From the NCBI RefSeq assembly GCF_009728735.1, contig NZ_CP024636.1:3847319-3911318 (forward strand): a stretch of 64,000 nucleotides of DNA. Reading direction: 5' to 3'. The translations under genes were made by a program, and so were the position numbers. The DNA is from Pantoea phytobeneficialis (GTDB lineage: Bacteria > Pseudomonadota > Gammaproteobacteria > Enterobacterales > Enterobacteriaceae). The notes under the pieces are model-generated. The model saw nothing but the letters and a program-made list of their open reading frames with translations, was not told where the DNA came from and searched no databases. Positions 1-5,999 of the stretch are shown in pieces (positions within the stretch are counted from its first letter, which is position 1; each line of letters opens with the position of its first letter).

Positions 1-347
1 AAATTGACGTTATGACCTTTCGGCATCACGATATCGTGCGGCACGCTGAGTGGTGCGGCATGCAGGTTTTCCAGCAGCCAGGCGTTATCTTTCACGATCA
101 CCGCCGCCACACTTTGCGCAATGCCCGCCGACGCACAGGAAACCACCACTGCGCTTTCCACCTCAAGCAGTTGCGCGATATACGCCCCGGTTTTATCCAC
201 CAGATCTTTCATCTCAAAGTAGTGGTTAAGGCCGTATTTCACGGTATCGACCACGTCTGCTGCCGGGGTCGATACGCCAAGAATGGTCATGCGACCAGAG
301 GCATTGATGACCTGCTTCAGGTCATATTTTTCATAAATCGAAGACAT
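1..347 (-). CDS. SelA-like PLP-dependent enzyme (DgaE family), 5' part only
   Basis: The window edge cuts this gene; only about the first 115 codons are present. It starts with ATG at 347 and overlaps the 3' end of the amidohydrolase gene by 17 bp, so the two are translationally linked. The N-terminus carries INASGRMTILGVS followed by a region rich in small residues, typical of the selenocysteine-synthase-like PLP enzymes that include D-glucosaminate-6-phosphate ammonia lyase (DgaE). The PLP lysine lies outside the window. Family membership follows from the N-terminal match and from the gene set; the substrate is unknown. It probably removes ammonia from a phosphorylated amino-sugar acid or a related amino acid. 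Confidence 0.8.
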   Translation of the reverse strand, partial: MSSIYEKYDLKQVINASGRMTILGVSTPAADVVDTVKYGLNHYFEMKDLVDKTGAYIAQLLEVESAVVVSCASAGIAQSVAAVIVKDNAWLLENLHAAPLSVPHDIVMPKGHNVN

Positions 348-1464
348 GATTGGCTTTCCCTTCATCTGTCAGATGCCATTGCCCCGCCACCACGGCGGCC
401 AGCGGCACCAGATGTTGCTCACCCAGCACCTGTTCGCCTTCAGCATCGACGAACGGGCGGGCTTCCTCTTTGACGGTAAAAATGGTCAGGTCGGCGTCGT
501 AACCGACCGCCAGGCAACCTTTGTTTTTCAGTCGCAGACCTTCAGCGGCTTTGCGTGTCACGCAGTCGATCACCTGCGGCAATGTCATGCCAATGCTGAA
601 GAATTTCGACATCACATGCGCCAGGCTGTGCACCGGGCCATTGATACGGTTGCGGCAGTAGATATCGGAGCTGATGGTGTCAGGCAGAATGCCCTGCGCA
701 ATCGCCTGACGCGCCACCTCAAAGCTGAAGCTGGCGCTGCCGTGGCCGATATCCAGCCGCACACCACGCGCTAACGCATTCTTCACCGCGGCTTTCAGCT
801 CGCCCTGCGGCGTAAGAATGCGGTTGGGTTTGCCGTTGTAGCAATGGGTGATGATGTCGCCGGAAGTCAGCAGATCGGCAATGTCCTCCAGCACCGGCGG
901 GTTGTTGCCGATATGCACCATCAGCGGCAGATCACCCGCCGCCTGCTGGATGGCTTTGGCCCGGATTAACGGCTGGATACCGTTTTCGCCCACTACGCTG
1001 CTGCTCATACGCGCTTTGAGGCCGACGATAAAATCGGGACGACGCTGAATAGCCTGCACCACCGCCTCACCGTCGATTTGCGCCATATCGGCCAGCTCGT
1101 TTTGCGTGACAATGCCGGTGCGGGCTATGTTGATCAGCGCACGAACGTCGGTCGTGACCTGTCGCGTAAGCTGATAAAAATCGTCAATATCATCAGCGCC
1201 GGTGCTGCCGGCATCCACCACCGTGGTGACCCCCTGTGCCACACCGATGGCATCCGCATCGTCGTGATAAATCGGCGATTTGGGATAACAGTGAACGTGG
1301 CTGTCGATCCAGCCTGCGCTGAGGTAGTAGCGCCCGGCCAGGTCGCGTTCTTGTGCCGCCTGACCGCTTACGCTACCCAGTGCGGCGATTTTGCCGTCCT
1401 GCCACGCAATATCCACCAGCTGTCCGTCGCACAGACGCGCACGACGGAGAATGACATCAAACAT
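331..1464 (-). CDS. Amidohydrolase/deacetylase family metallohydrolase
   Basis: A 377-residue TIM-barrel amidohydrolase with a complete binuclear-metal set: His56-Val-His58, Lys150 (probably the carbamylated bridging lysine), His184, His207 and Asp267. It should hydrolyse a C-N bond, for example in an N-acyl amino-sugar acid or a cyclic amide, in the cytoplasm. A strong GGAGG lies just before its ATG. It sits 9 bp after the DUF4310 gene and overlaps the PLP-enzyme gene. The arrangement matches the Enterococcus EF_0829-0839 and Aeromonas AHA_3910-type clusters as I remember them. All metal ligands are present, so it should be active; the substrate is unknown. Confidence 0.85.
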   Translation of the reverse strand: MFDVILRRARLCDGQLVDIAWQDGKIAALGSVSGQAAQERDLAGRYYLSAGWIDSHVHCYPKSPIYHDDADAIGVAQGVTTVVDAGSTGADDIDDFYQLTRQVTTDVRALINIARTGIVTQNELADMAQIDGEAVVQAIQRRPDFIVGLKARMSSSVVGENGIQPLIRAKAIQQAAGDLPLMVHIGNNPPVLEDIADLLTSGDIITHCYNGKPNRILTPQGELKAAVKNALARGVRLDIGHGSASFSFEVARQAIAQGILPDTISSDIYCRNRINGPVHSLAHVMSKFFSIGMTLPQVIDCVTRKAAEGLRLKNKGCLAVGYDADLTIFTVKEEARPFVDAEGEQVLGEQHLVPLAAVVAGQWHLTDEGKANHVFDL

Positions 1465-1473
1465 ACCCCCTCC

Positions 1474-2115
1474 TTAGAGAGAAACCGGGAAGATCGCGCC
1501 CAGCACCATGGCACCGAGAATCGCACCACCGGTAATCGGCTTGTTCCACAGGTAAAACAGCAGCGAACCCGCCAACGAACCAAGACCAATAGGAATTGAC
1601 GCGGTCATTGCCGACAGGATGATCAACGGACCGAGGAAGCGGCCAGAGGCGTTACCCGCCCCCATCATCACGTCGGCACCGTAGGTGGAGTCGCTCTGAT
1701 TGATGGTGAACTTACGCGCCAGGATGATGATGTAGCCAATCGCCACGCCAATCACCAGACCGGTTGCCAGCGAGGCGGCGAAGTTCGCGACTGGGAAGAC
1801 AATGCCCGCGCCCAGTAACAACGCCGGAACCCCCAGACCCACGCCGGTCTGAATCGCCCCGCCGATATCGAGAATCCCCACCAGCGAACCTTCGATTATA
1901 CGGGCGAACAGGAAGCTGGCACCGAACGCCGCTACCGCGCCGTAGACCCCGGTTTCCATGCCGGAACGCAGCATGGAGACAAACGCCACTTCGTTAAAAG
2001 CACCAATGCCGTACAGGTAGTACATATGCGTACCGGCAAACACCCCGGCGGAGAGCAGGCCGACAAAAATCGGGAAAGACCAGTCGGCGTACCAGAACCC
2101 TTTGTTTTCGTTCAT
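1474..2115 (-). CDS. DUF4310 family membrane protein
   Basis: A 213-residue hydrophobic protein with roughly six glycine- and alanine-rich membrane segments. It starts MNENKGFWYADWSFPIFVG and has a hydrophilic loop near residues 135-152. No characterised transporter signature was recognised. It lies between the DUF4311 membrane protein and the amidohydrolase, with 9-12 bp gaps, so the two integral membrane proteins are probably made together and may form one permease. Transport is inferred from topology and context only. Confidence 0.8.
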   Translation of the reverse strand: MNENKGFWYADWSFPIFVGLLSAGVFAGTHMYYLYGIGAFNEVAFVSMLRSGMETGVYGAVAAFGASFLFARIIEGSLVGILDIGGAIQTGVGLGVPALLLGAGIVFPVANFAASLATGLVIGVAIGYIIILARKFTINQSDSTYGADVMMGAGNASGRFLGPLIILSAMTASIPIGLGSLAGSLLFYLWNKPITGGAILGAMVLGAIFPVSL

Positions 2116-2127
2116 GCTGATGGCTCC

Positions 2128-2904
2128 TTATTTGCCGCTGAGGCTGTTGTGAATCATGTCCAGCCAGCCGGGAATACCCAGTTGGAAGGATTGCAGCAGT
2201 TTCATGTCAAAGCCGCGGAAGAAACCGCTCAGCACGAACAGCAGCACAATGGCGGTCATCATCACCTTGGTGACTTTGTTCCAGCCGCTCTCCTCGACAC
2301 CCTTACCGATCAGGATACCCAGAACCAGGCCCGGTACGGCGTTGCCCATAATCAGCTGCGCCAGGCCGCCGAAAATGGTGGCCCAGAAGCCCGATTTCTT
2401 ACCGGCATCAATCGCTGCCAGCCAGAAAATCACTGGCATCACGGTGTTCACCAGCAGGTTGGCCGCCGGTACCAATACTTTTACCGCCGTAACCTGCAAC
2501 GCTGCCGGAACGGCAGAAGCGGTGCTGTTCAGGAAGGCGACGACGATCATGCCGATGATGCCGCAGGCAATCGCCATCTTCTTCGGGTTGTGTAGTGTTT
2601 CTGCTACGTTGCGGTTTTTCACCATCAGGGCCGCCGCGCCCCAGTTCGGCAGGATGCGATGGTCAACATCCTGAGTGAAGGAACCCGCTGCAACGGATGA
2701 AGCCCAGGCGTTAAAGAAAAAGCCGAGACCAAAGGAGAAGTGCGATGCCGGATCGCCCTCACAGGAGTTAAGCTCGCCCAGCGTACGGAACGCGCCCATG
2801 CCCTGCGTGGTAGGAGCATGGAACATGCGCGCCGCACCTGCTCCAACGCCAACCCCTACCAACCCGCCAATGATTAACGACTTAAACAAAATAATTAAAA
2901 ACAT
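2128..2904 (-). CDS. DUF4311 family membrane protein
   Basis: A 258-residue membrane protein. It begins with a hydrophobic, glycine-rich helix, and further membrane segments lie around residues 110-135, 145-165, 175-200 and 210-230. A conserved-looking polar stretch (GELNSCEGDPASHFSFG, about residues 43-59) follows the first helix. It is always found with DUF4310 in this gene set as I recall it. The pair resembles the two membrane subunits of a mannose-type PTS in arrangement, but no PTS sequence motif is visible. Function unknown; permease subunit inferred. Confidence 0.8.
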   Translation of the reverse strand: MFLIILFKSLIIGGLVGVGVGAGAARMFHAPTTQGMGAFRTLGELNSCEGDPASHFSFGLGFFFNAWASSVAAGSFTQDVDHRILPNWGAAALMVKNRNVAETLHNPKKMAIACGIIGMIVVAFLNSTASAVPAALQVTAVKVLVPAANLLVNTVMPVIFWLAAIDAGKKSGFWATIFGGLAQLIMGNAVPGLVLGILIGKGVEESGWNKVTKVMMTAIVLLFVLSGFFRGFDMKLLQSFQLGIPGWLDMIHNSLSGK

Positions 2905-2931
2905 GCGTTTACCTTTGTTTTTCGTCTGTTG

Positions 2932-3231
2932 TTAAGGTGCCGCCGTGAATTCCACCTGTTCGGTATCGATCACGGTGACGCTGACGGTAATCTCCAGCTC
3001 CACGCTGTAGTTCCGTCGCTCACGCGCGAGGAAAAAGAACAAAAACTTCTCTGTCTTAACGCGCTCCTGCGCGCGCAGCACCCGGACATCCTGGGGTTCG
3101 ATGCGCAGCAGAATTTTTTGTGTGGTGCGCAGCACCTGCTGCTGCACCTTACTCAGGGCATCGGCAAAGGCTTTGGCTTTGCTGTCACCTTTGCCCTGTA
3201 CCGTTACCTGAGTCACGTATTGTTGTTTCAT
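2932..3231 (-). CDS. DUF4312 family small protein
   Basis: A 99-residue soluble protein with no signal peptide or membrane segment. It reads as alternating beta strands and helices (YVTQVTVQGKG near the N-terminus, VELEITVSVTVIDTEQVEF near the C-terminus). It starts 2 bp after the stop of the SFCGS gene. It is a conserved member of the EF_0829-type cluster with no known activity. A role as a cytoplasmic partner of the DUF4310/DUF4311 membrane pair is plausible but not shown. Confidence 0.75.
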   Translation of the reverse strand: MKQQYVTQVTVQGKGDSKAKAFADALSKVQQQVLRTTQKILLRIEPQDVRVLRAQERVKTEKFLFFFLARERRNYSVELEITVSVTVIDTEQVEFTAAP

Positions 3232-3233
3232 AC

Positions 3234-3590
3234 TTAGCTGCCGTATTTTTTGTTCCAGGCCTGTACCAGCCGTTCACCCAGCTCTTCTTTATCCATAAAA
3301 CCAAAACCGAGGACATTGGCACCTTCGTTAATCGCCGTGACGCCTTCATCAATCGAACGCATACCGTGCTTTGATTTGTAGCCATATTTGTTCTGCGCGG
3401 TAATTGCCCCCGCACCGCCGCTGCCGCAGAAGGAGATGCCGAAATCCGCATTTTCTGCCTTCATGACGTCACCCAGCTTCATATCTGCCGCTACCCCCGG
3501 CACCACCACGGCACGCCCACCGGCTTTCTCTACGCCAGCCGCGACTTTTTGCCCTTTACCCAAACGATCACCAATGACTACCGTTACCAT
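3234..3590 (-). CDS. Glycine-rich SFCGS family protein
   Basis: A 118-residue soluble protein. An in-frame TTG lies at 3596, but AGAGGA precedes ATG 3590 at normal spacing, so the ATG is preferred. The N-terminus reads VVIGDRLGKGQKV and a central glycine-rich segment contains SFCGSGGAGA with one cysteine. The start resembles the mannose-type EIIB motif (DDRLIHGQV), but lysine stands where EIIB has its phosphorylated histidine, so EIIB chemistry cannot be assumed. It lies between the PRD gene and DUF4312. Function unknown. Confidence 0.8.
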   Translation of the reverse strand: MVTVVIGDRLGKGQKVAAGVEKAGGRAVVVPGVAADMKLGDVMKAENADFGISFCGSGGAGAITAQNKYGYKSKHGMRSIDEGVTAINEGANVLGFGFMDKEELGERLVQAWNKKYGS

Positions 3591-3615
3591 GTTCAATTCC
3601 TCTTTGATTGCTGAC

Positions 3616-3948
3616 TTAATTCGATCTTGCTACTTCAATGTGGACGGACAGCAACCACGCCTCTTCGCGTGGCAGGTTGCCAAACAGATCCACCACCTGC
3701 TGCGCCAGCGCCATGGTCTCGGGCGAGATGTCCTCAAACAGCTCCGCTTCCACTTCCGGTAACGCTTCACCGGTCAGGGAGCGCGAGGCCATTGCTCGCA
3801 CATGTGAGGCCAGCATCTGCTGCTGCACCGCATTGGGTTCAATGTGGTGCGCGGCATACAGCGCGGCAATCTGCATCATCACGTTATCCGCCAGCGCCTG
3901 AATCGCTTCCGGCGTGCTTTGTTTCAGCGGAACAGCTTCACTACTCAC
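3616..3948 (-). CDS. Small PRD-domain protein (EF_0829/AHA_3910 type)
   Basis: A protein of about 110 residues covering a single PTS-regulation-domain-like helical fold, with histidines in HVRAMASR and SVHIEVARSN and no DNA-binding domain. A GTG at 3957 overlaps the AGGAG ribosome-binding site; GTG 3948 lies 8 nt after that site and is the better start. It is the first gene of the operon. PRDs are normally phosphorylated by PTS proteins, so this one may sense sugar flux for the system; that is inference. No DNA-binding activator is visible in the window. Confidence 0.7.
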   Translation of the reverse strand: MSSEAVPLKQSTPEAIQALADNVMMQIAALYAAHHIEPNAVQQQMLASHVRAMASRSLTGEALPEVEAELFEDISPETMALAQQVVDLFGNLPREEAWLLSVHIEVARSN

Positions 3949-4038
3949 CTGGCTCACTCCTGTTTACAGCGGACAATGACAGTTAATTCGCGTTGAGAAG
4001 AAATTACGCTGTTCGCTGTTGGCTGTGGAGACGCATCT

Positions 4039-4202: not shown

Positions 4203-4589
4203 TCAGCGGAATTTCTTATGGTTGGCGTTGCGAATATCTTCCAGTTTCTTCGCTTCGGTTTTGGCTTCGTCCAGTTTGTTGGCTTTCGCCAGTTGGTCGA
4301 CCACATCAATCTGGGCGATCAATGAATCAAGTCCGGCATGGAAATCCTTGATCTGGGCGCTATCAGCAGGCTGACCTTCCAGCTTTTCCGGCGTGGATTT
4401 TTTGGCATCCTCCGCCGCCTGGCGCATCTTGCCCAGTGCGGTTTGCATCTCCTGCGCATCATCAGTTTTTTTAACCGTGCTCAGGCCATCTTTGAGGGTA
4501 TCCATATCTTTTTCCAGGTCAGCCGCATATAAGCTGGCACTGGAGAACAACAACGACAGAGACAACATTGCAATCACATGCTTACGCAT
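4203..4589 (-). CDS. cybC: Soluble cytochrome b562
   Basis: A 128-residue periplasmic four-helix-bundle haem protein. A signal peptide (hydrophobic core LSLSLLFSSASL) ends at SLYA-ADLEK, giving a mature chain of 106 residues. Mature Met7 (DMDTL) and the C-terminal histidine in NANHKK correspond to the two haem-iron ligands of E. coli cytochrome b562, so haem binding should be intact. It is a single gene next to pmbA, as in E. coli. Its physiological electron partner is not known. Confidence 0.93.
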   Translation of the reverse strand: MRKHVIAMLSLSLLFSSASLYAADLEKDMDTLKDGLSTVKKTDDAQEMQTALGKMRQAAEDAKKSTPEKLEGQPADSAQIKDFHAGLDSLIAQIDVVDQLAKANKLDEAKTEAKKLEDIRNANHKKFR

Positions 4590-4616
4590 CGTTTATTCCT
4601 TTTTTATTTTACTGAC

Positions 4617-4643
4617 AAAAAAGGCAGCCTTGCGGGCTGCCTT
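4617..4643 (-). terminator. Rho-independent terminator of pmbA
   Basis: GC-rich stem AAGGCAGCC/GGGCTGCCTT followed on the minus strand by a run of six T residues, 16 bp after the pmbA stop codon. Confidence 0.85.
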
Positions 4644-4658
4644 CAGGAAGCGATGTCA

Positions 4659-5999
4659 TTATTGACCGGCGATCTTCATCTCCGGTAGCAGCACCGATCC
4701 ACACTGGATGTTGCTGCGGGTTTCAATATCGTTGCCGACAGTGACCATATTGCGCCACATATCCTTCAGGTTGCCGGCGATGGTGATTTCGCTCACCGGG
4801 TACTGGATCTCACCGTTCTCCACCCAGTAACCGGCAGCACCGCGTGAATAGTCACCGGTAATGGCGCTCACACCCTGCCCCATCAGCTCGGTCACCACCA
4901 GGCCACGCCCCATCTGCTTCAGCAAATCTGCGAAGCTGTGGCCCTGACCGGCAATGCGCCAGTTGTGGATACCGCCCGCATGGCCGGTGCTTTGCAGACC
5001 GAGTTTGCGCGCGGAGTAGCTGGTCAACAGCCAGTTTTGCAGCACGCCATTTTTGATAATGTCACGCGCCTGAGTGCGTACCCCTTCGCTGTCAAACGGC
5101 GTTGAGGCCAGCCCTTTCAGCAAATGCGGTTTCTCTTCGATGGTCAGCCATTCCGGCAGGATCTGCGTGCCCAACGCATCCAGCAGGAAGGTGGATTTAC
5201 GATAGACGCTGCTGCCGCTGATGGCCCCCACCAAATGGCCAAACAATCCGGTTGCCACTTCCGGGGCGAAAATCACTGGCGCTTGCATGGTGGAGAGTTT
5301 GCGTGGCGCCAGGCGTGACAGCACGCGACGCGCGCATTCAGCACCAACCCAATCCGCGCTTTGCAGATCGTTGATATCACGGCCAATGGTGTAGGCGTAA
5401 TCACGTTCCATCTCGCCGTTCTGCTCGGCAATCACGCAACTGGAGAGCGAGTGGCGGCTGGAGCAGTAGCTTTGCAACATGCCATGACTGTTGCCAAAAA
5501 CTTTGATACCGACGTGGCTGTTGAAGCTGCCGCCTTCGGTGTTGGTGATACGCTTGTCAGCCTGTAGCGCAGCCTGTTCCGCCTGCGCGGCCAGCTCAAT
5601 GGCGCGATCGGCATCGATCTCCCACGGATGGTAGAGATCGAGATCCGGTGCCTCGAACGCCAGCAAATCGCGATCCGCCGGGCCAGCATTGGGATCGCTT
5701 GAGGTGTAGCGGGCAATATCGATCGCCGCCTGCACGGTGCGTTTGATGGCATCCGGGCTGAGGTCGGTCGAGGAAGCACTGCCTTTGCGATTCTGATGAT
5801 AAACGGTGATGCCGAGTGCGCCATCGCTGTTAAATTCGACGTTTTCCACTTCGCCGTAGCGGGTACTGACACCGATACCGGTGGTTTTGGTCACCGCCAC
5901 TTCTGCGCCATCGGTGCTGGCTTTCGCCAGTTCCAGCGCCTGTGCGACAGCCTGTTCCAACACTTTACGTTGTTCTGCAACCTGAGTAGATACGTTCAT
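4659..5999 (-). CDS. pmbA: Metalloprotease PmbA (TldE)
   Basis: A 446-residue cytosolic protein, close to the E. coli length of 450. It pairs with TldD to form the heterodimeric TldD/TldE protease, which matures microcin B17 and degrades unfolded peptides such as CcdA. The PmbA subunit lacks the HExxxH zinc motif found in TldD, and none is seen here. The C-terminal domain contains [17 protein letters not shown] and the terminal [17 protein letters not shown] typical of the family. It is divergent from yjgA, as in E. coli. tldD is not in the window. Confidence 0.95.

Follow-up and report, generated by a model that had tools for sequence, protein, structure and literature searches.

Analysis of a 64,000-nucleotide stretch of the Pantoea phytobeneficialis genome (contig NZ_CP024636.1, positions 3,847,319 to 3,911,318; hereafter the window) showed that its left end holds the start of a nine-gene operon, in which five proteins of unnamed families, here called the DUF module (a stand-alone PRD protein, an SFCGS protein, DUF4312, DUF4311 and DUF4310), are encoded together with an amidohydrolase, a pyridoxal phosphate (PLP)-dependent lyase resembling DgaE, the aldolase DgaF and a PRD/EIIA regulator. 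On balance, we consider it probable that the five-gene module works as an uptake system akin to Enzyme II (EII) of the phosphotransferase system (PTS), importing and phosphorylating an N-acyl-2-amino-aldonate. The amino-sugar-acid chemistry that we infer for the enzymes is rated above this uptake mechanism. Gene content, gene order, conservation, the predicted fold of SFCGS, the catalytic and phosphate-site residues and the module swaps described below were all computed.

Operon layout and conservation

The operon runs on the minus strand, with its start at positions 1-3957 of the window and its remainder in the left flank of the same genome, which was read as region L002 (window position = L002 position - 10000). 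Adjacent genes overlap or are separated by no more than 27 bases, in the following order:

3616..3957, minus strand: small stand-alone PRD protein (EF_0829/AHA_3910 family; TIGR03582, 123.7 bits, cut-off 69.35)
3234..3596, minus strand: SFCGS protein (EF_0830 family) with a predicted RpiB/LacAB fold (PF14272, TIGR03577)
2932..3231, minus strand: DUF4312 protein (EF_0831 family), small and without a hydrophobic segment (PF14189/TIGR03578)
2128..2904, minus strand: DUF4311 membrane protein (EF_0832 family) with several hydrophobic segments (PF14188/TIGR03580)
1474..2115, minus strand: DUF4310 membrane protein (EF_0833 family) with hydrophobic segments (PF14187/TIGR03579)
331..1464, minus strand: amidohydrolase/deacetylase (EF_0837 family; TIGR03583, 549.8 bits, cut-off 432)
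1..365, minus strand: first 365 bases of the DgaE-like PLP ammonia-lyase gene, overlapping the amidohydrolase gene (TIGR01437)
L002 10365-9226, minus strand: full extent of the DgaE-like gene, ending outside the window (TIGR01437, 591.6 bits, cut-off 385.3)
L002 9229-8492, minus strand: DgaF KDPG aldolase (PF07071; NF047796, 382.9 bits, cut-off 300)
L002 8477-6558, minus strand: 639-residue regulator with HTH, Mga, PRD and EIIA-type domains

The seven tightly packed genes that an earlier note, made from the sequence alone, had placed at 1..3948 were all recovered by reading frames plus Pfam and NCBIfam matches. Its division of their products into two membrane proteins, three small soluble proteins and two enzymes was borne out by hydrophobicity and family matches, two of the module proteins having membrane-type hydrophobic segments and the three small ones having none. 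Each of the five unnamed proteins scored above the cut-off of its own NCBIfam model (TIGR03582, TIGR03577, TIGR03578, TIGR03580 and TIGR03579), and the TIGR members of the AHA_3910-3917 cluster were found side by side, in agreement with the note's likening of the operon to the EF_0829-EF_0839 and AHA_3910 clusters. The window PRD protein was placed in its family by NCBIfam alone; a Pfam search of it gave no match, while its Bartonella homologue passes the Pfam PRD model. Reading the left flank also located the aldolase that had been expected beyond position 1, directly after the DgaE-like gene.

Genome contigs were scanned for DUF4311, with the best 80 of 541 loci being compared; these came from Pantoea, Erwinia, Serratia, Yersinia and other enterobacteria. 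All nine genes occurred in the same order in 78 of these, which argues that the grouping is not due to chance; the other two loci were cut by contig ends and still held all five module genes, so that PRD, SFCGS, DUF4312 and DUF4310 accompanied DUF4311 in 80 of 80. A lactonase gene (PF10282 in the Klebsiella copy) lay between aldolase and regulator in 26 of the 78 complete loci. Three others had a gap of 510 to 3103 bases in its place, which contained two forward frames in one locus, a 452-residue frame on the other strand in another, and no forward frame of at least 90 residues in the third. The 452-residue frame belongs to locus L062, where it occupies the lactonase site of other loci. In L199 (3918-7013) and L050, about 3.1 kb is inserted between aldolase and regulator, with frames of 151 and about 590 residues that by eye resemble a secretion chaperone and its partner.

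DUF4311 was present in 12 of 398 Pseudomonadota genomes. Among 247 genomes of the order, 30 had DUF4311 above the cut-off and 31 had a DgaE-family gene; all 30 were among the 31, with both genes on the same strand and their starts 2.5 to 3.3 kb apart. Together with the 78 complete loci, these 30 genomes uphold the joint conservation of the cluster that the earlier note had assumed. The 31st genome (G452) carries a decayed copy, in which an open DgaE-like frame is surrounded by remnants of the PRD, SFCGS, amidohydrolase and aldolase genes (L182, 7332-10198). The cluster was also found on one Enterococcus and two Bartonella plasmid records (DUF4311 identity 69 to 73%).

Some individual copies are irregular. 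In an Aeromonas caviae record (L100, 12738-13349), the start of DUF4310 is fused in frame to the end of DgaF, so that the bulk of DUF4310 is missing along with the amidohydrolase and DgaE, through deletion or assembly error. On the E. faecalis plasmid record (L099, 650582-651315), the aldolase matches come in two unannotated pieces, and the gene may carry a frameshift. The operon site itself is largely shared: cytochrome b562 and PmbA genes lie just upstream in the window (4203-5999), and across the 80 loci PmbA was found on the same side in 71 and cytochrome b562 in 61.

Probable phosphorylated intermediates and exchange of the DUF module

The amidohydrolase appears complete, as the earlier note had stated: the metal ligands H56, H58, K150, H184, H207 and D267 were each conserved in 84 or 85 of 85 rows, and correspond to the binuclear set HxH, Lys, His, His, Asp that we take to be typical of EF_0837-type amidohydrolases. 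Solved relatives include 8wzy, 2ics and 2ogj. The note's naming of the second enzyme as a DgaE-like PLP lyase likewise held, since the gene exceeds the TIGR01437 subfamily cut-off. In the available part of a study of D-glucosaminate-6-phosphate lyase (PMC9529869), the phosphate of a hand-docked substrate lies near Arg301, 332 and 346 and its carboxylate near Arg226, and His163 is the proton donor. By alignment, the equivalents in the operon's lyase are Arg310, 341 and 355, Arg232 and His169. The three phosphate-site arginines, the PLP lysine and His169 were each found in 79 of 79 lyase rows (after a length filter, with the window's own gene counted twice), the equivalent of His162 was found in 77, and the position of Arg232 was Arg in 42 and Lys in 37.

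The DgaF aldolase family also uses a phosphorylated sugar acid. Nevertheless, the operon genes matched no kinase and no SSS family in Pfam, and none of the 78 complete loci (up to 20 kb each) matched either of two PfkB kinases, GntP, MupG or cellobiose-type EIIC, other kinase families not being sought. Twenty further regions gave the same picture, the 13 complete ones being without PfkB kinases, GntP, MupG and cellobiose-type EIIC; the other seven comprised two mannose-PTS cassettes, one decayed copy, one cut copy and three regions with distant DgaE-like genes, of which one also has GntP and another an amidohydrolase relative close by. Because lyase and aldolase need a phosphorylated substrate and the operon has no kinase, the evidence favours an uptake module that phosphorylates. 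As a side observation, genome G249 (L194, 5251-9129) has a permease of the GntP type close to a distant DgaE-like gene (34% identity), perhaps another symporter variant.

Six DgaE-DgaF cassettes lacking the DUF module were inspected; each held either a PTS of the mannose type or a different transporter accompanied by a sugar kinase. Mannose-type EIIA, EIIB, EIIC and EIID genes stood directly before DgaE-DgaF in Lacticaseibacillus paracasei and in the second copies in genomes G370 and G166, and these three cassettes had no amidohydrolase or kinase match. The Priestia cassette consisted of amidohydrolase, DgaE, DgaF, PfkB kinase and a GntP-type symporter, and a similar set is described for Bacillus cereus in the available part of PMC4896439. 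The Clostridioides difficile and Niallia cassettes combined a lac/cel-type EIIC, a MupG-type protein, amidohydrolase, DgaE, DgaF and a kinase. The simplest reading of these swaps is that the DUF module would do the job of EIIABCD, or of a transporter and a kinase, and so stand in for import and phosphorylation. On our reading, the amidohydrolase accompanies systems for an N-acylated substrate. A Listeria region (L181, 2157-6693) with an ascorbate-type PTS, phosphotriesterase-like and creatininase-like proteins and a distant KDGP aldolase is another aldolase cassette with a PTS.

A further link to the PTS came from the two Bartonella plasmids, on which a gene for a 671-residue HPr-EI fusion follows the operon's regulator on the same strand at a distance of 64 bases. 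The two copies differ at 2 of 672 positions and retain the motifs GLHARPA and GGATSHVAI, presumably the phosphorylation sites of HPr and Enzyme I (EI). To our knowledge, Bartonella has no sugar PTS, and the arrangement fits a PTS permease gained along with its energy source. On other plasmids, longer relatives were located, beside ptsG (glucose permease) in Caballeronia and at a distance of about 3 kb from ptsG in Azospirillum. PRD and EIIA domains were found in the regulators of the window genome and Bartonella, and a PRD in that of E. faecalis; the Enterococcus regulator gene is located elsewhere, outside the cluster.

The soluble module proteins include candidate phosphocarriers. His52 and His106 of the PRD protein were invariant (91 of 91 aligned rows), as was Cys57 of SFCGS (76 of 76), while DUF4312 had no conserved His or Cys column across 88 rows. 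The AlphaFold2 (AF2) model of SFCGS (pLDDT 90) has the RpiB fold: RpiB/LacAB entries made up its 21 best VIA-align rows and 43 of its 45 best Foldseek rows. Cys57 aligns with the position of RpiB Cys66, and the cysteine motif CG[ST]G is common to SFCGS and RpiB/LacAB. The column of E. coli RpiB His99 is Glu or Asp in 7 of 7 aligned SFCGS rows and the C-terminal tail is absent; we take His99 to be catalytic and the C-terminal arginine tail to be functional in RpiB/LacAB isomerases. We propose that the PRD protein is a histidine phosphocarrier or sensor and SFCGS an IIB-like cysteine phosphocarrier, although invariance of a residue is no proof that it is phosphorylated. For the membrane proteins, Pfam gave the DUF4310 and DUF4311 models as sole matches, and His30 of DUF4310 was invariant (84 of 84 rows). 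Both domains occurred in one protein in 4 of 120 listed proteins, which may be sequencing artefacts; this hints that the two work together, and we propose that they are two halves of one permease.

Proposed pathway and alternative explanations

The scheme proposed for transport, phosphoryl transfer, order of steps, regulation and substrate is as follows. DUF4310 and DUF4311 would form an inner-membrane permease, and a phosphoryl group would pass from HPr~P to the PRD protein (His52/His106), on to SFCGS (Cys57) and finally to the incoming sugar acid, which would be 6-phosphorylated as by a PTS Enzyme II, with DUF4312 as a putative accessory part of the uptake module. The lactonase, where present, would open the lactone, the amidohydrolase would take off the acyl group, and the DgaE-like lyase would eliminate ammonia to yield 2-keto-3-deoxy-6-phosphogluconate (KDPG), which DgaF would cleave to pyruvate and glyceraldehyde-3-phosphate. 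The PRD/EIIA regulator would sense the phosphorylation state and turn the operon on.

An aldonate carrying an amino group at position 2 is suggested by GntP-type symport, the lactonase and the chemistry of DgaE/DgaF, and an N-acyl group on it by the conserved amidohydrolase. The most likely candidate is N-acetyl-D-glucosaminate (GlcNAc1A) or its lactone, since GlcNAc1A is released by chitin-oxidising lytic polysaccharide monooxygenases (LPMOs) and degraded by marine bacteria. In the available parts of PMC9537276 and PMC12017989, this degradation proceeds by deacetylation, deamination and then phosphorylation. A study of chitin use in Aeromonas could not confirm a GlcNAc1A route there, according to its available part (PMC11653859), and the accessible text of an E. 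faecalis study mentions EF0838 and EF0839 and suggests amino-sugar metabolism (PMC7701990).

Several points weigh against the proposed scheme. We know of no PRD or RpiB-fold protein that acts as an EII phosphocarrier. In hhalign comparisons, DUF4310 and DUF4311 showed no similarity to mannose-type EIIC or EIID, to glucitol EIIC (EII-GUT; 2 sequences) or to YhfT (3 sequences), and a low-confidence AF2 model of DUF4311 from 21 sequences (pLDDT 68, pTM 0.54) matched no solved structure. The Bartonella HPr-EI could be there for the PRD regulator only. The swap table comprises six cassettes from few lineages, and the kinase of E. faecalis does not discriminate, because the DUF module occurs there together with a lac/cel-type EIIC, MupG and the kinase. 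The amidohydrolase is a putative N-deacylase with a putative substrate, and the lyase missed the cut-off of the D-glucosaminate-6-phosphate DgaE equivalog (367.5 bits vs. 600). A co-occurrence test gave no support for an association with chitin-oxidising LPMOs (12 of 30 DUF4311-positive vs. 53 of 217 other genomes, p = 0.08), also after removal of genus g234, which we take to be Aeromonas and which had 8 sampled genomes with DUF4311 (4 of 22 vs. 51 of at most 215, p = 0.79).

We consider it unlikely that DUF4310 and DUF4311 form an ordinary secondary or phosphate-ester permease, with the substrate phosphorylated outside or by an unlinked kinase and with PRD, SFCGS and HPr-EI controlling expression only. 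The failure of the membrane proteins to match any tested EIIC or EIID would agree with such a permease, and the PTS domains of the regulator may need PTS phosphorylation, which could account for the Bartonella HPr-EI. Against this, the other four module genes accompany DUF4311 in every locus compared, the Bartonella and Enterococcus records retain all five although the Enterococcus regulator lies elsewhere, and the only symporter cassette opened (Priestia) has a linked kinase. The earlier note's suggestion of uptake by a novel permease followed by deacylation and deamination is partly supported: the two enzymatic steps on an N-acylated amino-sugar acid are still the best fit, whereas a plain permease would not explain the source of the phosphate needed by DgaE and DgaF. 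Far more doubtful is an active RpiB/LacAB sugar-phosphate isomerase in SFCGS, adding a pathway step after import of a ketose or aldose precursor. Its fold, conserved cysteine and match to TIGR02133 (E = 7e-4, far below the model cut-off) speak for this; the acidic residue at the His99 position and the missing tail speak against it, and the mannose-PTS cassettes suggest that DgaE and DgaF work without an isomerase.

An appreciable, if less than even, chance attaches to a substrate other than GlcNAc1A, namely a different acylated or lactam 2-amino-aldonate (an epimer, another acyl group or a peptidoglycan-derived acid), which would be compatible with phosphorylating uptake by the DUF module. The unsupported LPMO link, the MupG-type proteins accompanying the enzymes in three Firmicutes records and the shortfall of the lyase against the equivalog all argue for it. 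On the other side stand the phosphate-site arginines, PLP lysine and His163 equivalent, conserved in all lyase rows, though Lys replaces the carboxylate arginine in 37 of 79.

Comparison with known systems

The D-glucosaminate system dgaABCDEF of Salmonella (PMC9529869, in its available part) shares with the operon a DgaE-type lyase, DgaF, PTS uptake giving a 6-phosphate (here as proposed) and the cassette logic. It takes up its substrate via a mannose-family EII, where the operon has the DUF module; moreover, the three mannose-type cassettes seen had no amidohydrolase match, and the operon's lyase falls under the DgaE equivalog cut-off. The Pseudoalteromonas ong pathway (available parts of PMC9537276 and PMC12017989) has amidohydrolase-superfamily deacetylation, PLP-dependent deamination and the KDG-6-phosphate endpoint in common with the proposed route. 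Unlike that route, ong uses SSS symporter uptake and places deacetylation and deamination before phosphorylation by KdgK, and its deacetylase OngB, which is mononuclear and D-aminoacylase-like, has only weak similarity to the amidohydrolase of the operon (9kb1, E = 1.9e-5). The operon was rejected as an ong pathway, given its EF_0837-family hydrolase and the lack of a kinase or SSS match in Pfam. Priestia and B. cereus have amidohydrolase, DgaE-like lyase and KDGP aldolase in common with the operon, a symporter and kinase replacing the DUF module. With RpiB/LacAB isomerases, SFCGS shares the predicted fold and cysteine motif, but it is shorter and has neither a His99 counterpart nor the C-terminal tail.

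The E. coli yhf operon (yhfSTUVWXYZ; L083, 4936-12345) resembles the operon in design, with a stand-alone PRD protein (YhfY), a small protein with an RpiB-like cysteine motif (YhfU), YhfT, a phosphotriesterase-like hydrolase and PLP enzymes. Its enzymes differ from those of the operon, and direct hhalign comparison of YhfU with SFCGS found no similarity (0.6%). With a chance that we put just short of even, the module would represent a novel Enzyme II class of the PTS, without sequence relationship to the permease families compared; a relative of RpiB-fold isomerases would have become its cysteine carrier and a regulatory PRD domain its histidine carrier, with yhf as a second branch.

The cluster is already recorded in NCBIfam as 'hypoth_equivalog' entries, and the literature searched contained no naming of DUF4310-4312 or the SFCGS family. 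As far as our searches show, the new elements are the phosphate argument, the module swaps, the Bartonella HPr-EI, the RpiB fold predicted for SFCGS and the interpretation of the module as a PTS-like Enzyme II. In many bacteria the PTS is a main route of sugar uptake, and the classes of PTS permease are usually considered known. If the proposal is correct, it would add a further PTS class with new phosphocarrier folds, give a function to five families from gut, insect and plant bacteria and make a long-open gene cluster testable. It would also place a phosphorylation-first route for oxidised amino sugars alongside the ong pathway, in which phosphorylation comes last.

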